64,000 bases of DNA, from the NCBI RefSeq assembly GCF_022808865.1, contig NZ_JAKZLB010000003.1, positions 129,875 through 193,874 of the forward strand. Direction: 5' to 3'. This DNA comes from Geothrix oryzisoli (lineage in GTDB: Bacteria > Acidobacteriota > Holophagae > Holophagales > Holophagaceae). Under the pieces are notes generated by a model. The model ran no database searches. It worked only from the letters and a program-made list of their open reading frames with translations, and was not told where the DNA came from. Position numbers and translations under genes: made by a program. This document shows, piece after piece, positions 1,491-39,886 of the stretch (position 1 is the first letter of the stretch; the number at the start of each line of letters is the position of its first letter).

Positions 1491-1645
1491 GGTTCCTCCG
1501 GAATGGCGCGCGGACCCAGGATGGGACGACCGGGCGCCCGGGGCCATGGTGCCACAAAAACCGGGTGCGCAGGCCTCGGCAAAACCCGTGAAAGCGAGAC
1601 TAGAAATAAAGATCTAGTTCGAGTTAAACCTGTCCTGAACGAGAT

Positions 1646-1695
1646 CTCCACCAACGAAGAAGGCGCCCGTCCGGGCGCCTTCTTCGTTGGTGGAG
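1646..1695. terminator. Long perfect hairpin after rplS
   Basis: A 24-bp perfect inverted repeat with a 2-base centre (arms 1646-1669 and 1672-1695). The GC-rich core GGCGCCCG is flanked by AAGAA/TTCTT, so it can act as an intrinsic terminator on both strands. It sits immediately downstream of the rplS stop. Confidence 0.85.
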
Positions 1696-1703
1696 AATGG
1701 AAT

Positions 1704-2063
1704 CTACTCGCCGTTCTCGGTGCGGCGCTCCTTGAGGCGGCCGGCCTTGCCGAGCTTCTCGCGCAGGAAGTAGAGCTTGGCGCGGCGGACCTTGCCGTGG
1801 CGCACGACTTCGAGCTTGTCGATGGTGGGGCTGTTGAGGGGGAAGATGCGCTCCACACCCACGCCGCTCGCGACCTTGCGGACGGTGAAGGAGGTGCGCA
1901 TGCCGCCGCCCTTGATGCCGATGACGATGCCCTGGAAGAGCTGGATGCGCTCCTTCTCGCCTTCCTTCACCTTGACGTGCACCTTGACGGTGTCGCCGGG
2001 GGTGATGCGGGGCAGGTCGGACCGAAGCAGGCTCGCTTCAAGCTGGTCGATGATGTGGCTCAT
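1704..2063 (-). CDS. rplS: 50S ribosomal protein L19 (bL19)
   Basis: A 119-residue protein of the usual L19 length. It contains the diagnostic segments [47 protein letters not shown] and [12 protein letters not shown]19 sits at the 30S-50S interface of the ribosome. The chosen ATG follows AGGAG and gives the family N-terminus MSHIIDQLE; the upstream extension has no family resemblance. In most bacteria rplS directly follows trmD. Here an outer-membrane protein gene separates them. Confidence 0.97.
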
Positions 2064-2165
2064 GTGGGCTCCTGGGCCAGCGGTCCCGGGCCGGAATCGG
2101 CGGACATGGCTCGATGTCCCCGGAGTCGGGGAGTCCATCAGTGTATCGGAAAAGGCTGGAAAGGA

Positions 2166-2196
2166 AAGGGGGCATTCCCGGAGGAAGCCCCCTTGC
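2166..2196. terminator. Hairpin between barrel gene and rplS
   Basis: AAGGGGGC and GCCCCCTT arms enclose a short loop in the gap between the stop of the 2211-2765 gene and the start of rplS. It may terminate or attenuate read-through into rplS. Confidence 0.55.
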
Positions 2197-2210
2197 CCCT
2201 GAACCTCAGC

Positions 2211-2765
2211 CTAGAAGCGGAAGGTGGCGCCCACCTGGATCATGTCGAGGTCGCCTTCCCAGGCGCTGCTCTTCAGGTAGCGGACGTCAGCTCCGACCGT
2301 CTTGTTGAACTGGTAGCCCATGCCGGCGGCTAGGCCCAGCTTGGTGGTGGTCTCGCTGGTGGATGCGCTGGCGCCCAGGTAGGAGGTGCTCAGCTCGGCC
2401 TTCCACTTCACCAGCGCGAGGCCGCCGGTGACATAGAAACCCTGGGGCTTGCCTTCCACGAAGTACAGATAATCGGCGCCAAGCGCAATGTTGGAGAGCT
2501 TGTGGTTGGTCGAGTAGCCGCCCCAGCCCCAGGAGTACTCGGGGAACCAGGTGTAGTCCAGGCGGGGGCGGATCATGTGGCCGCTCTGGAGGTCGAAGGT
2601 GGCCTGGGCGCCGACGGTGAAGCCCACCTTGCTGTCCACCGCGTCCTTGAGGTCGCTCTGGGGGATGTTGAGGCCCGCCTGGAGCCCGAAGCGGGGGCCT
2701 TCCTGGGCGCTGAGGGCGGGGGCCACCAGCGCGGCGGCAGCCAGGATGAGTGCGCGGATCGTCAT
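2211..2765 (-). CDS. Outer-membrane beta-barrel protein (paralogue 2)
   Basis: A 184-residue paralogue of the 957-1490 product with a signal peptide (residues 1-20, ending ALSAQ), the same DYLYF-GKP and YVTGGLA blocks, and a terminal TFRF. The ATG follows AAGGAG. The two copies flank rplS, so one has been placed between trmD and rplS and the other just after rplS. A duplication around the ribosomal gene is the simplest explanation. Function unknown. Confidence 0.85.
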   Translation of the reverse strand: MTIRALILAAAALVAPALSAQEGPRFGLQAGLNIPQSDLKDAVDSKVGFTVGAQATFDLQSGHMIRPRLDYTWFPEYSWGWGGYSTNHKLSNIALGADYLYFVEGKPQGFYVTGGLALVKWKAELSTSYLGASASTSETTTKLGLAAGMGYQFNKTVGADVRYLKSSAWEGDLDMIQVGATFRF

Positions 2766-2910
2766 GAGATCTCCTTGAGGCCCATGGGGGGCCGGGGTTC
2801 ATTGGGCGGATCCGGGGCCTCTGAGGCCGCGGTCGCCCGATGGGGCTAAATGTTACCTACGCATCTTGTATCTGGAGGTCTAGTCCGGATCCAAGAAAAT
2901 CGACCTGGTT

Positions 2911-3696
2911 CTACTTCCAGCCCTTCCAGCCCTTGGGTTTGGACCGGTTCCAGTCCTCGGGATGCTCCACCTGCCAGGCGCACCACTGGGCGGGGCGATC
3001 CAGGGAGGGCAGGCGGTCCCGCAGGTAGGCGGTCCAGAGGTCCGGCCTCAGGCGCTTCGTCCGGGCCATGGCCTCCCGCAGGCGCCAGAGGCGGATGGCG
3101 CCGTGGTCGCCGCCCTGGAGGACCGCCGGCACGTCGAGGCCTTCGAAGGTCGCGGGCCGGGTGTAGTGGGGGTGGTCCAGCAGGCCCGTGGCGAAGCTGT
3201 CCGCCTCGGCGGAGGCCTGGTTGCCCAGGACGCCCGGCAGCCAGCGGCAGACCGCGTCGATGAGGTAGAGGGCGGGCAGCTCGCCGCCGCTGAGGACCGC
3301 CTCGCCCACACTCAGCTCCTCGTCCACGCAGTGGGCCACGGCGCGCTGGTCCAGGCCCTCGTAGCGCGTGCAGACCAGGATCAGCTGATCGAGGCGGGCC
3401 AGCTCCAGCACCTTGGCGTGGGTGAGCGGCGGGGCCGCAGGGCTGAAGTGGATGACGCGGCCGGCGCCTTCCCGGGGGACGGTGGCCAGGGTGTCCCGCA
3501 GCACCTCGGGCCGCAGCACCATGCCGGGTCCGCCGCCGAAGGGGGTGTCGTCCACATGGCCGAACGGGTTGCCCGCGAAGGGCCGGTAGCTGTGGGTGTG
3601 GAGGCCGTGGCCCAGCTCGCGGAAGGCCCGGCCCGTGATGCCGAGGCGCGCGGCCTCGAAGAACTCCGGGAAGAGGGTGAGGGCGTCGATGCGCAT
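2911..3696 (-). CDS. trmD: tRNA (guanine-37-N1)-methyltransferase TrmD
   Basis: A 261-residue SPOUT methyltransferase that forms m1G37 next to the anticodon and so prevents +1 frameshifting. Visible family blocks are RIDALTLFPEFF at the N-terminus, DDTPFGGGPGMVLRPE, LVCTRYEGLDQR, the trefoil-knot SAM loop SVGEAVLSGGELPALYLID, and LDHPHYTRP. The ATG overlaps the stop of the upstream ExoD-like gene (TGATG), so translation is probably coupled. An alternative GTG one codon earlier is possible. rpsP and rimM, the usual upstream neighbours, are not in this window. Confidence 0.96.
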   Translation of the reverse strand: MRIDALTLFPEFFEAARLGITGRAFRELGHGLHTHSYRPFAGNPFGHVDDTPFGGGPGMVLRPEVLRDTLATVPREGAGRVIHFSPAAPPLTHAKVLELARLDQLILVCTRYEGLDQRAVAHCVDEELSVGEAVLSGGELPALYLIDAVCRWLPGVLGNQASAEADSFATGLLDHPHYTRPATFEGLDVPAVLQGGDHGAIRLWRLREAMARTKRLRPDLWTAYLRDRLPSLDRPAQWCAWQVEHPEDWNRSKPKGWKGWK

Positions 3697-4298
3697 CACT
3701 TCACCATCGCGTGGAAGGCCCTCGTGAAGGTCCGGAGGATGAGGTCGAAGCTGAAGGCGAAGTACAGGGTGTTGGCCAGGGAGGCGATGGCGCCGATCCA
3801 GGCCCAGGTGGGGCGCTCCTCCAGCAGGGCCGCCCCCATGAGGCAGAGGGTGGCGGCGGGCAGCTGGTTGCCGAAGGGCAGGGGCACGGGGATGGCCAGC
3901 AGGAAGCCGGTCCAGGCGATGCAGGCCCCCGCCCAGCGGTGGTGGATAGGCCGGCGCCCGGCGCCGCGCCAGCGGAGGCGGTCCAGCTGGGTCTCCAGCC
4001 TGGCCAGGGCGTTTTTGATGCGGCCCTTGTGGATGGGCTGGGCCTGGATCCGCCGGGGCACCCAGGGGTGGGGCGTGCCCCAGGCCATCTGGACCCCGAG
4101 GGCCATGAGGCCGATGCCGCCCACGGGGGCCAGGCCGAGGTTGAGGCCGGGCACCAGGTTCGGCAGGGAAAGCAGGAGGGTCAGGAAGCCGTAGGTCTGC
4201 TCCCCGGCGGCATCCAGGAGTTCGCCGAGCGTGATCTCACCTTCCGCGTCCAGCAGGGCGTGGAGGGTCTCGAAGAAGGGTTTCGGCGCGGGCTGCAC
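3696..4298 (-). CDS. ExoD-like membrane protein (exopolysaccharide synthesis family)
   Basis: About 200 residues with three to four hydrophobic segments and the ExoD family layout: a short polar start, GEITLGELLDAAGEQTYG, then LLLSLPNLVPG, a charged loop, and a hydrophobic C-terminal half with FLLAIPVPLPFGN. ExoD was named from exopolysaccharide mutants of Rhizobium, but its molecular role is unclear. The GTG at 4298 is preferred because it puts the start just before the conserved region. A GTG at 4385 would overlap rlmN. It lies between rlmN and trmD and overlaps trmD by one base. Confidence 0.75.
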   Translation of the reverse strand: MQPAPKPFFETLHALLDAEGEITLGELLDAAGEQTYGFLTLLLSLPNLVPGLNLGLAPVGGIGLMALGVQMAWGTPHPWVPRRIQAQPIHKGRIKNALARLETQLDRLRWRGAGRRPIHHRWAGACIAWTGFLLAIPVPLPFGNQLPAATLCLMGAALLEERPTWAWIGAIASLANTLYFAFSFDLILRTFTRAFHAMVK

Positions 4299-32491: not shown

Positions 32492-32970
32492 TCCGCCCAG
32501 TCCTGCCCACCGACGCCCCGGCCCTGGCCGACATCTACAACCCCTACGTGCGGGACACCATCATCACCTTCGAGGAGGAACCGGTTTCCGCGGCCGAGAT
32601 GGGGGCGCGCATCGCCAAGGTGACCGCGACCTATCCCTGGCTCGTGTGGGAGGAGGACGGCGGGGTGATCGGCTACGCCTACGGCGCCACCTGGCGGACC
32701 CGGCACGCCTACCGCTTCGCCGTGGAGACCACGGTCTACCTGGCCCAGGGCCACCACGGGAAGGGACGGGGCGCCGCGCTCTACCAGGCGCTGCTGGACG
32801 AACTCCGGCAGCAGGGCTTCCACTCGGCCCTGGGCTGCCTGGGCCTGCCCAACGAGCCCAGCGTGCGGCTGCACGAGAAGCTCGGCTTCCGGAAGGTGGG
32901 CCACATGACCGAAGCCGGCTGGAAGTTCGGCGCCTGGGTGGATGTGGGCTTCTGGGAACGGATGCTGTGA
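32488..32970 (+). CDS. arsN: GNAT acetyltransferase, ArsN/PAT-like
   Basis: A 160-residue GNAT protein of the phosphinothricin acetyltransferase group ([81 protein letters not shown]). Members in ars operons (ArsN1) acetylate arsinothricin. That substrate is inferred from context. Confidence 0.82.
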
Positions 32971-32980
32971 AGGAGCCACG

Positions 32981-33400
32981 GTGACCTCGATCCTCTTCCT
33001 CTGCGTGGCCAACAGCGCCCGGTCCCAGCTGGGCGAAGGTCTGGCGCGCCTCCTGTTCCCGGACTTCCGCATCCAGAGCGCCGGCAGCCGGCCCAGCGGC
33101 GTGAACCCGTACGCCATCGAGGTCCTGGCGGAGCGGGGCATCGACGCCTCGACGCACACCTCCAAGCCCGTGTCGGCCATCGATCCGGCCTCCGTGGACC
33201 TGGTGATCACGCTCTGCGCCGAGGAAGTCTGCCCTGCCTTCCTGGGCAAGGCCGAGCGCCTGCACTGGCCCATCCCGGATCCCGCCAGCGATGATCCTTC
33301 GCTGACGCCCGAGGACCTGCGGGCCCGCTTCCGCGCCGCCCGGGACGAGATCGCCCGCCGGTTGGAGGCGCTCGGGCGGGAGCGGGGCTGGATTTCTTGA
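32981..33400 (+). CDS. arsC: Arsenate reductase, thioredoxin-coupled (LMW-PTP type)
   Basis: 139 residues starting at GTG after AAGGAG. The phosphatase-type loop C8-VANSA-R14 binds arsenate; C79 and C84 (TLCAEEVC) correspond to the relay pair of the S. aureus enzyme. DLVITLC and HWPIPDPAS are family blocks. It reduces As(V) to As(III), with a thioredoxin such as the CAKC protein at the end of the island as a possible partner. Confidence 0.93.
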
Positions 33401-33454
33401 ATTTCGAAAAAAATCGAAATTAGGGCTTGCGCGCTATTTCGACAAACCTAGAAT
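33401..33454 (+). promoter_or_regulatory. arsR2 promoter with ArsR operator
   Basis: A perfect inverted repeat ATTTCGA-N6-TCGAAAT (33401-33420) includes TTTCG-N8-CGAAA, as before arsR1. It is followed by TTGCGC (33427-33432), a 16-base spacer and TAGAAT (33449-33454). The 9-mer CGCTATTTC within the spacer is the reverse complement of 30233-30241 at the first promoter. Confidence 0.75.
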
Positions 33455-33471
33455 TAAGCCAGGAGGAGACC

Positions 33472-33807
33472 ATGACCGGGCGTGTGGAACAGGCGGCAGA
33501 GCGGCTGAAAGCCCTCGGACACCCCGTCCGCCTGGCCATCCTGCGCCGCGTGGTGCAGGGCCCCGAGGCGGGGACGCCCGCCGGAGAGCTGCAGTCGCGC
33601 CTGGACATCCCGGCCTCCACCCTCAGCCATCATCTGGCCACCCTCGCCGACGCCGGCCTGGTGCAGGTGGCCCGGGAAGGCACCACGCTCCGCTACCGCG
33701 CCGACTTCGGCGTGCTGCATGCGCTCACCGACTACATCTGGCAGGACTGCTGCGCCGGTGGCGCCGCGGAACCGCCGCCCCCTTCGCCCTGCTGCGACAG
33801 GGACTGA
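33472..33807 (+). CDS. ArsR family repressor (ArsR2)
   Basis: A 111-residue winged-helix protein (RLKALGHPVRLAILRRVV, LQSRLDIPASTLSHHLATLADAGL). It lacks the CVC motif in the recognition region and instead has CC pairs near the C-terminus (QDCCAGG and PCCDRD), like the C-terminal As(III) sites of AfArsR-type repressors. The ATG follows AGGAGGAG. A separate promoter suggests the second half of the island is independently tuned. Confidence 0.88.
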   Translation: MTGRVEQAAERLKALGHPVRLAILRRVVQGPEAGTPAGELQSRLDIPASTLSHHLATLADAGLVQVAREGTTLRYRADFGVLHALTDYIWQDCCAGGAAEPPPPSPCCDRD

Positions 33808-33875
33808 CCTTCCATCGTCCTGGGACCTGGATGCCGCCGGCATCCCCGGGGACCGTTCATCTGAAAGGCACCGCC

Positions 33876-34727
33876 ATGGATTCCGAAACACTCAAATCTG
33901 CCGTCCGCGACCGCTATGCGGGCTTCGTCACCAAGAACCAGAGCTGCTGTGGTCCTTCCACTTCCTGTGGTTGTGCGCCCGGCGACGCCAGCCTGGAACT
34001 GGGCTACGACCCGAAGGACCTGGCCGCCGTGCCCGAAGGCGCCAACCTGGGCCTGGGCTGCGGCAATCCCGTGGCCCTGGCCGCGCTGAAGCCCGGCGAG
34101 ACCGTGCTGGACCTGGGCTCCGGCGCGGGCTTCGACGCCTTCCTCGCCGCCCAGCGCGTGGGCCCCGGAGGCCATGTCATCGGCGTGGACATGACGCCGG
34201 AGATGATCGCCCGGGCCACGGCCCTGGCCCGGAAACACGGCTACGGGAATGTCGAGTTCCGCCAGGGCGACATCGAGGCCCTGCCCGTGGACGACGCCAG
34301 CGTGGACGTCATCCTCTCCAACTGCGTGGTGAACCTCGCCCCGGACAAGGCCAAGGTCTTCCGTGAGGCCTTCCGCGTGCTGAAGGCCGGCGGCCGCCTC
34401 CATGTTTCCGACCTCGTGCTGGCCCGGCCCCTGCCCGAGGCGCTGCTCCAGGATCTGGACGCCTACGCCGCCTGCATCTCCGGCGCCATGCTGAAGGACG
34501 ACTACCTGGCCGCCATCCGCGCCGCGGGTTTCGAGGGCGTGACCGTGGCCTCCGAGCGGGGCTTCGGCCTGGCGGAACTCTCGCCGGAATTGATGGCGCT
34601 GGCGAAGGAGCGCTACCCGGGCATGAGTCCGGAGGAACTGGAGCGTCTGGCCAGCTCAGTGCTCAGCGTCCAGGTGGAGGCCACCAAGACTGTGAAGGCC
34701 TGCTGCGCGCCCGGCTGCTGCGGGTGA
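33876..34727 (+). CDS. arsM: Arsenite S-adenosylmethionine methyltransferase
   Basis: A 283-residue class I methyltransferase. VLDLGSGAGFDAFLAA binds SAM. The conserved As(III)-binding cysteines correspond to C62 (LGLGCGNP), C150 (LSNCVVNL) and C200 (YAACISGAM). It makes mono- to trimethylated arsenicals. Extra Cys clusters occur at both ends (SCCGPSTSCGC and CCAPGCCG). Confidence 0.94.
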   Translation: MDSETLKSAVRDRYAGFVTKNQSCCGPSTSCGCAPGDASLELGYDPKDLAAVPEGANLGLGCGNPVALAALKPGETVLDLGSGAGFDAFLAAQRVGPGGHVIGVDMTPEMIARATALARKHGYGNVEFRQGDIEALPVDDASVDVILSNCVVNLAPDKAKVFREAFRVLKAGGRLHVSDLVLARPLPEALLQDLDAYAACISGAMLKDDYLAAIRAAGFEGVTVASERGFGLAELSPELMALAKERYPGMSPEELERLASSVLSVQVEATKTVKACCAPGCCG

Positions 34728-34734
34728 GGGTGCC

Positions 34735-35808
34735 ATGACGGATGCTTCGAAAAGCTGTGCTTGTGCTGCGCCGACGCCGACTCCGCGCGGCGGCTTCTGG
34801 ACCTCGGGGGGGTGGCTGCTGGCCGCCCTCCCGGTCTGGGTCGGGCTCTACCTGATCCTCCAGCCCATCGCCGGCTGGCTGGCCTTCCGGGCTCTGGGGC
34901 TGGCCCCCGGCAGCCGCCTGGGCGAGGCCGTGGCCTTCTTCGCCTATGACGCGCCCAAGGTGCTGATGCTCCTCGGGGCTGTGGTGCTGGGCGTCAGCTT
35001 CGTGCAGACGTTCATCAGCCCCGAGCGCACCCGCGACCTGCTGGCGAAGCGCACCGGCGCCTGGAGCAACCTCCTGGCCTCGCTGCTGGGCATCGCCACC
35101 CCCTTCTGCTCCTGTTCGGCGGTGCCGCTCTTCATCGGCTTCGTGCGGGTGGGCGTGCCCCTGGGCGCCACCTTCAGCTTCCTGGTGTCGGCGCCCATGG
35201 TGAACGAGGTGGCGCTGTTCCTGCTGTTCGGCCTCTTCGGCTGGCGCATCGCCCTCCTCTACACCGTGACGGGCGTGGCGGTGGCCTTCGTGGCGGGCTG
35301 GATCCTCGGGAAGCTCCGCATGGAGCGCCATCTGGAGCCCTGGATCCTGGAGATCCCCTTCGAAGCGTCCAAGGCCTCCGACGCCCCCATGCGGCTCGCC
35401 GCGCGCCTGGACCTGGCGCTCCAGGCGACGAAGGACATCGTGGGGAAGGTGTGGATCTATGTCCTCATGGGCATCGCGGTCGGCGCCTTCCTCCACGGCT
35501 ATGTGCCCGCGGAGCTGCTGGCCCGCGTCATGGGCAAGTCCGCCTGGTGGAGCGTGCCCCTGGCGGTGCTCATCGGCGTGCCCCTGTACTCCAACGCCGC
35601 CGGCATCATCCCCATCGTGCAGGTGCTGCTGGCCAAGGGCGCGGCCCTGGGCACGGCCCTGGCCTTCATGATGGCCGTCACGGGCCTGTCGCTGCCGGAG
35701 ACCGTCATCCTGCGGAAGGTGCTCAAGCCCCGGCTGCTGGCGGTGTTCCTGGGCGTGGTGGCCGCGGGGATCGTGCTGGTGGGCTTCCTGTTCAACGCGC
35801 TGCTATGA
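34735..35808 (+). CDS. ArsP/SO_0444-type permease
   Basis: A 357-residue membrane protein of the DUF318 permease family with eight to nine helices. The hallmark GIATPFCSCSAVPLFIGFVR lies in the first half and VPLYSNAAGIIPIVQ in the second. ArsP members export trivalent methylarsenicals, which would suit the product of the adjacent arsM. The N-terminus carries SCAC. Confidence 0.88.
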   Translation: MTDASKSCACAAPTPTPRGGFWTSGGWLLAALPVWVGLYLILQPIAGWLAFRALGLAPGSRLGEAVAFFAYDAPKVLMLLGAVVLGVSFVQTFISPERTRDLLAKRTGAWSNLLASLLGIATPFCSCSAVPLFIGFVRVGVPLGATFSFLVSAPMVNEVALFLLFGLFGWRIALLYTVTGVAVAFVAGWILGKLRMERHLEPWILEIPFEASKASDAPMRLAARLDLALQATKDIVGKVWIYVLMGIAVGAFLHGYVPAELLARVMGKSAWWSVPLAVLIGVPLYSNAAGIIPIVQVLLAKGAALGTALAFMMAVTGLSLPETVILRKVLKPRLLAVFLGVVAAGIVLVGFLFNALL

Positions 35809-36209: not shown

Positions 36210-37256
36210 ATGCGCATCGGCATCCTGGGTTATGGCCGCTTCGGGCGCGCTCTGGGCGAGCTGCTCCGCGAGGCCGGCCATGGCTATCGGGCCTGGGATC
36301 CCGCCGTGGAGGTCCCCGTGGAGCGCCGGGCGACCGGTCTCCAGGATCTGGCGGACGCGGAGGCCCTGGTGCTGGCGGTCCCCGTGGCCGCCCAGGCCGC
36401 GGCCCTGGCGGGCCTTCGCCCCCACCTCCGGCCGGACCAGCTGGTCTTCGACGTGGGCAGTGTGAAGTCGGGCCCCTGCGCCCTGATGGACGCCCAGCTG
36501 GGGGCCGCCATCCCCCACGCGGGAACGCACCCCCTCTTCGGGCCCGTGAGCCTGGCCCGGGCCGAGCGGCCGCTGCGCGTGGTGCTCTGCCCCTCGGCCC
36601 ACCATCCTGCCGCCGCAGACCGGGTGCAGGCCCTGTTCGAGAGCCTGGACTGCGAGGTGCTGCGCCAGAGCCCCGAGGACCACGACCGGGTGATGGCCAC
36701 CACCCATGCCCTCACCTTCTTCATCGCCAAGGGGCTGCTGGCGGTGGGCGCCGGGGCCGAGCTGCCCTTCACGCCGCCCTCCTTCCACGCGATCGCCCGC
36801 ACGCTGGAGTCCGTGCGCGAGGACGCCGGCCACCTCTTCGCCGCCCTCCAGAACCAGAATCCCTTCGCCGCCGGGGCCCGAGAGGGCCTGCTGGAGGCCC
36901 TCTCCGCCATCCACCAGACCCTGGCGGAAGCCGTGGCCGAGGGTGCGGACGAGCAGCAGCTGGCCATCCCCAGCCTGGGGGAGCGCTCCCCCATCCTCCA
37001 GGAGACCCGCGACCACATCGACACCCTGGACCAGGAGCTGGTGGCCCTCCTGGCCCGCCGCACGGAACTGGTGCTCCGCGCCGGCCGAGCCAAGGCCGAG
37101 CTGGGCCTGCCCGTGCACGATCCCGAGCGCGAGAGCGCTCAGCTCCAGGCCCGCCGTGCCTGGGCCCTGGAAGCGGGCCTGGACAGCCAAGGGGTCGAGG
37201 AGGTCTTCCGGGCCGTGCTGCGGGCTTCGCGCTCCGCTCAGGGCGCCAAGGGCTGA
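36210..37256 (+). CDS. tyrA: Prephenate dehydrogenase-chorismate mutase fusion
   Basis: A 348-residue bifunctional enzyme for tyrosine synthesis. The N-terminal NAD-binding domain starts MRIGILGYGRFGRALGELL and the prephenate part has FDVGSVKSGP, GTHPLFGP and THALTFFIAKG. From about residue 265 a chorismate mutase (AroQ-type) helix set follows: RDHIDTLDQELVALLARRTELVLRAGRAKAE. The order is dehydrogenase then mutase, the reverse of E. coli TyrA. It is convergent with the sigma-factor gene and overlaps its 3' end. Confidence 0.88.
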   Translation: MRIGILGYGRFGRALGELLREAGHGYRAWDPAVEVPVERRATGLQDLADAEALVLAVPVAAQAAALAGLRPHLRPDQLVFDVGSVKSGPCALMDAQLGAAIPHAGTHPLFGPVSLARAERPLRVVLCPSAHHPAAADRVQALFESLDCEVLRQSPEDHDRVMATTHALTFFIAKGLLAVGAGAELPFTPPSFHAIARTLESVREDAGHLFAALQNQNPFAAGAREGLLEALSAIHQTLAEAVAEGADEQQLAIPSLGERSPILQETRDHIDTLDQELVALLARRTELVLRAGRAKAELGLPVHDPERESAQLQARRAWALEAGLDSQGVEEVFRAVLRASRSAQGAKG

Positions 37257-38290
37257 CCGCCCTCCGCCGCGCCCGCCCAGGCCACCACCAGGATGCCTGC
37301 GGGCCGGTCTGCGGGCCGGGTTTCTCGGGTGATCTGGAGCTCCAGCGGCCAGGCCTCCGCCAGCCAGGGGGCTTCCAGGATCTGGAGGGCCTTCCCGTCA
37401 GGACCGGGACCCTGGAGATCCAGGTGCCTCCAGCCCTGGGCCGTCCTGATCCAGAGGACCGGATGCTCTCCAGCGGGGAGAGCCGGGAAGTTCGAGAGGG
37501 TGAGCACGGCGATCCCGGCGCCGGGGGCGCTGCGGAAGCTGGCGTGGAGGCCCATCTCCCCTGGGGCGGCCCCGGGCGGGGTCAGGCGCAGGGCCTTCGT
37601 CTGGCTGTCGGCCAGCAGGTGGAGGGCCCGCTGCTCGCTTCGGTCCTGGACGGCGTGCCGCTGGTAGATCCAGGTTCCCGTGACTCCCACGGCGGCAGCC
37701 AGGATGGCCACCAGGCCGCCCAGGTGCCGCTCCAGGCTCCGCAGGCCGCTGCGGATCCGGGTCTTCGCGGTGCCGAGGGGGACCTGGAGGGCCCGGGCCA
37801 CCTCCTCGTGGGTGAGGTCAGCGAAGAAGGCCAGCCGCAGGGCCGCCCGTTGGGGTTCCGGCAGGGCCGCCAGCGCTTCCGACACCGCGTCCCGCTGGAC
37901 TTCGCGCCAGAGGGCCTCGTCCGGAAGGGGGTCCTCCGCGGAGAGGGCCGCCTGCTCGAGGGGATCGCCGGCGGCCTGGGGGCGTCGGGCGCGGGCCCGC
38001 AGCTCGTCCAGCATCCGGTGGCGGCTGATGCCGAGGAGCCAGGTGCGGAAGGATCCTTTGGCTGGGTCGAAATCAGCCGCCTTCCGCCACACGGCGAGGA
38101 AGGTGTCCTGCACGACCTCCTCGGCCGCCGCCCGGTCCAGGGAGCGGCAGGCCAAGTGGAACACCAGGGGCGCATAGCGCCGGTGCAGCTGCTGCAGGGC
38201 CTCCTCCCGGCCCTCCCGGACCCGCTGGACGAGGATCGCGTCCTCCTCACCGGGGGGGCTGGCAGGGGAAGGGGGGACCGGGGCGGTCAT
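37238..38290 (-). CDS. ECF sigma factor fused to a transmembrane, anti-sigma-K-like domain
   Basis: 350 residues in one frame. Residues about 20-100 are sigma region 2 (VRFG-type block EEALQQLHRRYAPLVFHLAC, EEVVQDTFLAVWRKA, FRTWLLGISRHRMLDELR). About 137-190 are region 4 (LPEPQRAALRLAFFADLTHEE, LQVPLGTAKTRIRSGLRSLE). A single hydrophobic helix (about 191-208, GGLVAILAAAVGVTGTWIY) follows. The remainder, with AVLTLSNFPALPAGEHPVLWI, resembles the extracytoplasmic RskA/anti-sigma-K domain. Normally these are two proteins. The ATG at 38290 is preferred to a TTG at 38356. It follows the Rieske gene. Confidence 0.82.
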   Translation of the reverse strand: MTAPVPPSPASPPGEEDAILVQRVREGREEALQQLHRRYAPLVFHLACRSLDRAAAEEVVQDTFLAVWRKAADFDPAKGSFRTWLLGISRHRMLDELRARARRPQAAGDPLEQAALSAEDPLPDEALWREVQRDAVSEALAALPEPQRAALRLAFFADLTHEEVARALQVPLGTAKTRIRSGLRSLERHLGGLVAILAAAVGVTGTWIYQRHAVQDRSEQRALHLLADSQTKALRLTPPGAAPGEMGLHASFRSAPGAGIAVLTLSNFPALPAGEHPVLWIRTAQGWRHLDLQGPGPDGKALQILEAPWLAEAWPLELQITRETRPADRPAGILVVAWAGAAEGGQPLAP

Positions 38291-38352: not shown

Positions 38353-38832
38353 TCAAAGCCGGGTCTCGGGGGGGACGGTGCTGGCGGTGTCCACCAGCAG
38401 CAGCCCCTGCGGGTCGGTCTCCTTCACCTCCAAGTGCCGCAGGTGGCGCTTGGCGGGCCCTTGCGTGACCTCGCCGTGGCCGTCGTACTCGCTGCCGTGG
38501 CAGGGGCAGGCGAAGCCGGCGGCGCCGTCCGCATGGACGATGCAGCCGAGATGCGTGCAGATGCCGGACAGGGCGTAGATCCCGCGCTCGTCCGCCATGA
38601 GGAAGAAGGCACCGAGCCGCCGGTAGTCCAGCACCTTGCCGGGTGTCAGGTCCGCCCGCGTGGCCTCGGTGAGCTTCAGCGGGTGGGGATCGGGCGGCAG
38701 CTCCGGCGGAACGGCAGGCTGCGCCCCGCCCGGGAGGGCCGCGCCCGCCAGCAGGAGGCCGAGGGTGGCGCAGAAGGCGCGTCGCGGGTGGACGGAGACC
38801 AGGGGTGGGCCGTCGGGATGCGCCATCGTCAT
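38353..38832 (-). CDS. Tat-exported Rieske 2Fe-2S protein
   Basis: A 159-residue protein. HPRRAFCATLGLLLAGAAL is a twin-arginine-type signal. The Rieske cluster ligands are in ICTHLGCIVH and FACPCHGSEYDGHGEV (Cys-x-His, Cys-x-x-His, with the two bridge cysteines). No cytochrome b is adjacent, so its electron partner is unknown. Its ATG overlaps the stop of the metallophosphoesterase gene (ATGA). Confidence 0.88.
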   Translation of the reverse strand: MTMAHPDGPPLVSVHPRRAFCATLGLLLAGAALPGGAQPAVPPELPPDPHPLKLTEATRADLTPGKVLDYRRLGAFFLMADERGIYALSGICTHLGCIVHADGAAGFACPCHGSEYDGHGEVTQGPAKRHLRHLEVKETDPQGLLLVDTASTVPPETRL

Positions 38833-39770
38833 GCCGGTGTCCCCGCGCCCTTCAGCGACTCGGCGAGAGGCTTCTCGGCCAGCACCAGGAGTCCCTCGCC
38901 GGTCTTCAGCTGGGGTTGGGTGTGGATCTGCCGGAAGCCGAGGCCCCGGTAGGGGTGGGCCGGGTCCCAGGGTACCGGCGCCCGCTTGGGGGCGGAGCCG
39001 GGGGCCGGCAGGGGGAAGATGAGCGAGGTGGCCGCGTGGTGCTGGATGTGGCCCGTGCGGTGGTGGTGCTCCTGGTGGATGTGGCCGTAGAACACCGTCA
39101 CGAAGCGGTGGTCCTTCAGCAGGTCCAGGGCCTTCTGGCCGTCCAGGGTGGCCCAGTCCCAGTCGGGATAGAGGTCGAAGAGGGGCCGGTGCGCGAAGAT
39201 CACCAGGGGCTCGTCCTTGGGCGTGTGGCTCAGCTCCCCCGCCAGCCACTTCAGCTGCTCGGCGCCGAGGATGGAGCCCACCTGGGACACGTTGTCCAGG
39301 GCGATGAAGTTCACGCCCCGGTGCGTGAAGGCGTAGTGCGAGATGCCGAAGGCCTCCCGGTAGGCTTCGCCGCGGTCCTCCGCTGCGTCATGTTCCCCCG
39401 GCAGGTAGCGGATCTGCCGGACCCGCAGCCGGCTGGCCTGCTGCTTGAACTCCGCCATGCGCTTGCGGCGGAGGAGCGGATCGTCGGTGTCGTGGGTGAG
39501 GTCGCCCGTGAAGATGACGAAGTCCGGCTGGGGATCGAGGGCATTCACCGCGTCGATGGCCTTGCCCAGGGTGCCGGTCGCATCCGGGTTGACCTTGGGC
39601 CCCTCGAAGCCCCAGTGGGTGTCTGACAGCTGCACCCAGTAGAAGTCCGAGGCTTTGGCGCCGCCCGCGGGGCCGAGCGCCTCCGCGAAGCCCGGAAGCC
39701 CCGTGGCGAACACGGCGCCCCCGATGCCCATGACCTTCAGGAAGGTCAGCCGATCCATCTGCGATCCCAT
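38829..39770 (-). CDS. Secreted calcineurin-like metallophosphoesterase
   Basis: A 313-residue protein with an N-terminal export signal (DRLTFLKVMGIGGAVFATG). The two-metal site is DTHWG (D-x-H), FTGDLTHD, LPGEHD (Glu replacing Asn of GNHD), FAHRPL and GHIHQEHHH. It hydrolyses phosphate esters of unknown identity. The ATG at 39770 follows GGAGGAGG. It heads a run of metallophosphoesterase, Rieske and sigma-fusion genes on the minus strand. Confidence 0.87.
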   Translation of the reverse strand: MGSQMDRLTFLKVMGIGGAVFATGLPGFAEALGPAGGAKASDFYWVQLSDTHWGFEGPKVNPDATGTLGKAIDAVNALDPQPDFVIFTGDLTHDTDDPLLRRKRMAEFKQQASRLRVRQIRYLPGEHDAAEDRGEAYREAFGISHYAFTHRGVNFIALDNVSQVGSILGAEQLKWLAGELSHTPKDEPLVIFAHRPLFDLYPDWDWATLDGQKALDLLKDHRFVTVFYGHIHQEHHHRTGHIQHHAATSLIFPLPAPGSAPKRAPVPWDPAHPYRGLGFRQIHTQPQLKTGEGLLVLAEKPLAESLKGAGTPA

Positions 39771-39886
39771 GCGCCCCTCCTCCCGGGCTCGGCCCGGCGT
39801 TCCGTTCCCTCACTCGAGGGGACACAGAGGGATACGCCAGTCTTGGGGGATTGGATGTCGGGTCGGAGGATCGACCCCGATTTGGC

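Follow-up and report, generated by a model that had tools for sequence, protein, structure and literature searches.

A SigK-like ECF sigma factor joined in one chain to an RskA-like membrane helix and extracytoplasmic domain in Geothrix oryzisoli

In the 64,000-nucleotide stretch of Geothrix oryzisoli DNA analysed here (hereafter the window), one gene (37238..38290, minus strand) encodes a 350-aa protein in which an extracytoplasmic function (ECF) sigma factor, a single transmembrane helix and an RskA_C-like domain are joined, with loss of the cytoplasmic anti-sigma domain of RskA. Fused sigma domains of this kind form a single clade, are co-inherited with an exported metallophosphoesterase in Geothrix and lie behind a conserved promoter-like element. 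We consider it probable that the protein is a tethered sigma factor, silent at the membrane, which is freed by regulated intramembrane proteolysis and activates its own operon. Normally, these tasks are divided between two proteins, a sigma factor and a membrane-spanning inhibitor and sensor, but here one chain ties the sigma factor straight to the membrane. If this model is true, the protein would be a compact outside-to-promoter switch. Moreover, because the domain thought to silence the sigma factor is lost and the helix and sensor are kept, the fusion offers a clean test of anchoring alone as an off-switch.

The fusion gene and its sigma domain

The fusion gene is read from ATG to TGA in a single frame (38290..37238, minus strand) with no internal stops. 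Pfam identified Sigma70_r2 at residues 35-103 (E 3.6e-19) and Sigma70_r4_2 at residues 134-186 (E 1.1e-11), which, together with Kyte-Doolittle hydropathy, agrees with the initial annotation of one uninterrupted frame carrying sigma regions 2 and 4 and a single hydrophobic helix. The sigma domain (residues 1-187; 37729..38290, minus strand), delimited by Pfam and by alignment to SigK (PDB 4nqw) and E. coli sigmaE (PDB 6jbq), is of the ECF type, having regions 2 and 4 of sigma-70 and lacking regions 1 and 3 (Pfam, NCBIfam). It matched TIGR02937 with 99.7 bits against a cut-off of 42.9, and its second-best NCBIfam match was PRK09646 (SigK) at 128.7 bits, which is under the cut-off of 226 for that family. 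SigK aligned with residues 15-188 (E 6e-22) and was among the nearest solved homologues, with 37% identity over the aligned part; R. sphaeroides SigE scored above it. The sole cysteine of the sigma domain is Cys48, and both redox cysteines of SigK are missing. SigK proteins without these two cysteines tend to go with an altered RskA (PMC7509140). By these matches, the domain is a complete ECF sigma factor that resembles SigK.

The first search of related genomes returned 12 full-length relatives, none with internal stops, which were 69-85% identical to the fusion in 11 cases and about 51% identical in Geothrix rubra. In six Geothrix pairs, dN/dS was mostly 0.1-0.4 in the sigma and C-terminal parts alike; it was higher but noisy in the short transmembrane and juxtamembrane stretches, and region 2 gave a high value once, in the closest pair. 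This pattern indicates purifying selection on both halves of the fusion. The initial annotation had named an assembly frameshift as a possible source of the fusion, but stop-free, full-length orthologues in many independent assemblies and the mostly low dN/dS values rule out a frameshift or an assembly chimera.

The C-terminal domain and its relation to RskA

RskA_C (PF10099) matched residues 194-286 (E 3.2e-4), a match that, for the G. oryzisoli sequence taken singly, does not reach the curated cut-off. Every one of the 12 members aligned over the C-terminal part (best E 1.1e-9) and of the 11 aligned over the full length (best 2.7e-16) matched the family, some of them above the cut-off; a Chloroflexota fused member scored 50.2 bits, the cut-off being 29.4. 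In profile-profile comparison, the fused proteins aligned with separate RskAs at a probability of 98.7 (E 4e-16), in an alignment that extends weakly into the cytoplasmic part as well, and the C-terminal part alone gave a probability of 96.7 (E 3.8e-10). The relation to anti-sigma-K proteins proposed in the initial annotation thus holds.

Further searches of the fused proteins for RskA_N and zf-HC2 found neither in any of the 11. Separate RskAs from related loci carried, besides RskA_C, zf-HC2 in five of eight cases and RskA_N in two of eight. Between the sigma domain and the transmembrane helix, Pfam detected no zf-HC2, and region 4 leaves no room there for a zinc-finger; an anti-sigma domain hidden at the N-terminus or at the sigma-membrane junction was likewise ruled out by Pfam and by the 11-member alignment. 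The fusion thus keeps the sensor half of RskA, namely its transmembrane helix and extracytoplasmic domain, and has lost the cytoplasmic domain that grips the sigma factor. Correspondingly, of the "anti-sigma-like domain" first described, the transmembrane and extracytoplasmic part is present and the sigma-binding part is absent, and the suggestion that the protein acts as its own anti-sigma factor is, in the usual sense, unlikely given that RskA_N and zf-HC2 are missing from 11 of 11 fused proteins.

The extracytoplasmic part (residues about 232-350; 37241..37597, minus strand) is a predicted RskA_C-like beta-sandwich. The model of residues 222-350 is an eight-stranded sandwich with a pLDDT of 82, whose best PDB fold matches were Cu,Zn superoxide dismutase-like sandwiches (VIA-align Z 9.6, rmsd 2.8, 98 residues). 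Foldseek gave zero matches with E below 0.001 for this model, and RskA structures were absent among the fold matches. We take this likeness as that of a widely shared fold, which does not speak for any particular function.

The membrane junction and a model of proteolytic release

The single transmembrane helix (residues about 190-208; 37667..37723, minus strand) has a mean Kyte-Doolittle hydropathy of 1.91, compared with 1.12 for the next best stretch. Residues 5-190 of E. coli sigmaE correspond to residues 15-195 of the fusion model, and this alignment together with hydropathy indicates that the helix begins, at about residue 190, where ordinary ECF sigma factors end. Across 11 diverse fused members, the alignment is free of indels from region 4.2 to the point where the transmembrane helix begins. 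In the AlphaFold model, the recognition helix of region 4.2 runs on into the membrane helix as one unbroken helix (residues 172-227), with a pLDDT of about 60-80 along it and a mean pLDDT of 75.8 and a pTM of 0.41 for the whole model.

On this basis, we propose that the SigK-type sigma domain would face the cytoplasm, joined by the final helix of region 4 to the transmembrane helix without a linker, and that the RskA-type extracytoplasmic domain would be the sensor. The anchored sigma factor would be kept off productive promoter binding by the tether and not by an anti-sigma domain. We infer that a signal at the extracytoplasmic domain would lead to site-1 cleavage, after which a site-2 protease would make the second cut and set the sigma domain free. 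The free sigma factor would then read [A/C]ATCC-N15-G[C/T]GTA and turn on its own operon, and in Geothrix this positive loop would raise the metallophosphoesterase, the Rieske protein and the fusion itself.

Of the models, we prefer proteolytic release on the example of the FecR-type hybrid IutY, which is silent until cut, is released by Prc and RseP and has no activity once RseP is lost (PMC5411451). RskA, moreover, is a substrate of the site-2 protease Rip1 (PMC7509140). What counts against release is that a hydrophobic stub would stay attached to the DNA-recognition helix of the freed sigma factor. Site-2 protease (M50) homologues are encoded in the G. oryzisoli genome, which lends release weak support since site-2 proteases are near-universal.

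Activity without release has to be allowed for because SigK also reaches a high-activity state in the presence of a membrane-anchored, truncated RskA (PMC7509140). The fusion might accordingly be a one-component membrane regulator, in which the anchored sigma factor recruits RNA polymerase at the membrane and the outer domain acts by conformation or clustering without proteolysis; we regard this as unlikely, though it is the main rival to release. That the outer domain sets the activity of such an anchored sigma factor directly, proteolysis and an anti-sigma domain both playing no part, is in our view likewise unlikely. An anchored, active sigma factor would be consistent with the lack of any anti-sigma domain to hold it off and with the loss of the cytoplasmic domain from a protein whose helix and sensor are kept under purifying selection. 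However, the modelled recognition helix enters the membrane helix without a linker, unlike what would be expected of a tethered DNA-binding protein, and the dependence of IutY on RseP also argues against it (PMC5411451).

Comparison with known systems

IutY of Pseudomonas putida (ECF243) has the nearest known layout, with a cytosolic ECF sigma factor, one transmembrane helix and an extracytoplasmic anti-sigma-derived domain in a single chain (PMC5411451, PMC8999054). In the literature we found, it is the sole experimentally characterised protein that unites a sigma factor with a membrane anti-sigma module and is released by proteolysis, and it was termed unique. Its helix also seems to follow closely behind the sigma domain, as a truncation of <237 aa leaves about 50 periplasmic residues. 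IutY has a FecR-type domain, acts in cell-surface signalling with an outer-membrane receptor and responds to the siderophore aerobactin, whereas the Geothrix fusion has a SigK-type sigma domain and RskA_C, lies in an operon with metallophosphoesterase and Rieske genes and belongs to a clade spanning several phyla. Neither a FecR-type domain nor an outer-membrane receptor gene was found at the fusion, where the domain is RskA_C and the neighbours are the metallophosphoesterase, Rieske and tyrA genes. The fusion, apparently of single origin, seems to have arisen independently of IutY, from the SigK/RskA side.

To our knowledge, the C-terminal extensions of ECF41, ECF42 and CorE-type sigma factors are soluble and none spans the membrane. 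These proteins resemble the fusion in having a regulatory domain behind the sigma factor and no separate anti-sigma factor (PMC8999054). The SigK-RskA pair (ECF18/ECF19; PMC7509140, PDB 4nqw) shares with it a homologous transmembrane helix and C-terminal domain, but is encoded by two genes and has the cytoplasmic anti-sigma domain and the two SigK redox cysteines that the fusion lacks. Members of ECF48, ECF52 and ECF53, such as SCO4117, also carry a C-terminal transmembrane extension for which proteolytic activation has been proposed; they have been described from Actinobacteria only, and differ in possessing a zinc-finger anti-sigma domain between the sigma factor and the membrane and in their outer domains (PMC5826349, PMC8999054). 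The fusion is therefore different from the fused sigma factors described in the literature we found in having an RskA-type sensor without a zinc-finger or RskA_N anti-sigma domain, although an ECF group number for it may already exist.

Distribution and origin

The fusion was present in 16 of 47 sampled Geothrix genomes. Outside this genus, it occurred in another Holophagaceae genus (G416, L040), the Holophagaceae MAG UBA706 (L064), an Acidobacteria MAG (L046), four Chloroflexota genomes (L048-L050, L109) and a Deltaproteobacteria MAG labelled Myxococcota (L047). It was rare both among Chloroflexota (4 of 301 genomes) and in the phylum of L047 (1 of 297) at the threshold used. Altogether, the sigma-TM-RskA_C architecture was kept in at least 20 distinct loci from three phyla. 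In a maximum-likelihood tree of 62 sigma domains, sampling of which was steered by fused queries so that unfused members inside the fused clade could be missed, all 23 fused sigma domains were set apart from the rest by a single branch (support 98/97), and this branch was recovered in 98% of 200 bootstrap trees. The simplest reading is that the fusion arose once and was later transferred or lost, and it appears to be an old clade spanning phyla. The first account of the gene was correct on its architecture but overlooked this clade, as well as the conserved promoter-like element described below. In another locus (L105, G422), a second SigK-like sigma fragment lies at a contig end with AATCC-N15-GTGTA upstream and could be a further fusion.

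The operon and its promoter-like element

In Geothrix, the operon runs from the metallophosphoesterase gene through the Rieske gene to the fusion, and the two upstream genes were confirmed as initially annotated. Cultured species with this operon include G. paludis, G. terrae, G. campi, G. limicola and G. rubra. The first encodes an exported metallophosphoesterase (38829..39770, minus strand; PF00149, E 2.2e-13). The second encodes a Rieske [2Fe-2S] protein (38353..38832, minus strand; PF00355, E 2e-12), its start overlapping the stop of the preceding gene; this protein is exported, probably by the Tat route, and has an RRAF motif near the N-terminus. The metallophosphoesterase was found in all 16 fusion-bearing Geothrix genomes and in none of the 31 that are fusion-free.

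Upstream of the operon lies an ECF promoter-like element, CATCC-N15-GCGTAT (39832..39857, minus strand), which is conserved in fused loci with a fixed 15-base spacing and would be expected about 0.01 times per upstream region by chance. Nearly all fused loci have [A/C]ATCC-N15-G[C/T]GTA ahead of the fusion gene or its operon. CATCC-N15-G[C/T]GTAT lies upstream of the metallophosphoesterase gene in the fusion-bearing Geothrix genomes, exactly in 15 of 16 and with one mismatch in the other, and occurs in L046 too; variants are AATCC-N15-GCGTA in L064 and GATCC-N15-GTGTAT in the G416 region. Fusions without the metallophosphoesterase operon (L047, L048, L049, L050, L127) have a looser element upstream of the gene or a neighbour, which by chance would be expected about 0.01-0.03 times per 160 bases where counted, for a pattern picked after the sequences were seen. 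Of 42 unfused relatives, 4 have a strict form of the element upstream, where 0.2 would be expected. The conservation of this element upstream of the fusion gene or its operon points to autoregulation.

The operon element is the only instance of the motif that tracks the fusion in Geothrix. Apart from it, the G. oryzisoli genome has a single exact match (C3:229289), within an epimerase-like gene of the opposite strand, and the fusion's operon may therefore be the whole regulon. A larger regulon defined by exact motif matches was not supported by this search.

Neighbouring genes and possible partners

As the initial annotation stated, no separate anti-sigma gene adjoins the G. oryzisoli fusion, downstream of which lies a convergent tyrA-like gene; the 3' ends of the two genes overlap by 19 bp (37238-37256). 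None of the fused loci inspected has an anti-sigma gene next to the fusion, which is a single frame in each. Most unfused sigma relatives are closely followed by a gene with an anti-sigma-like start. An anti-sigma factor encoded elsewhere might control the fused sigma factor, the RskA tail being a leftover or a localisation tag, and other ECF sigma/anti-sigma pairs do exist in fusion-bearing genomes. We consider this improbable: besides the lack of an adjacent anti-sigma gene, RskA_C matches nothing in the G. oryzisoli genome but the fusion, and a C-terminal domain that is under purifying selection and kept across phyla argues against a leftover.

Self-inhibition through contacts between regions 2 and 4 or in the juxtamembrane stretch, lifted by a redox change or a partner such as the Rieske protein, would fit the recurrence of electron-transfer-type neighbours (Rieske in Holophagaceae, cupredoxin-like in L046, a propeller-cupredoxin-like lipoprotein in L127), but is highly improbable with the SigK redox cysteines missing, only Cys48 in the sigma domain, and neighbours that are not constant among fused loci, L047-L050 showing no obvious partner.

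Several neighbouring frames were named by reading the sequence. In L046, a short cupredoxin-like frame (about 3906-4270) with a CxxxCxxxHxxM-like copper motif sits between the metallophosphoesterase and the fusion, the position of the Rieske gene in Geothrix. In L127 (Chloroflexota, G616), a secreted beta-propeller lipoprotein with a cupredoxin-like end (1495-3006) comes before the fusion, with AATCC-N15-GTGTAG just upstream. Elsewhere in the window, an arsenic-type gene cluster (32942-35808, plus strand) comprises frames resembling a low-molecular-weight phosphatase/arsenate reductase, ArsR, an ArsM methyltransferase and a permease-like membrane protein.
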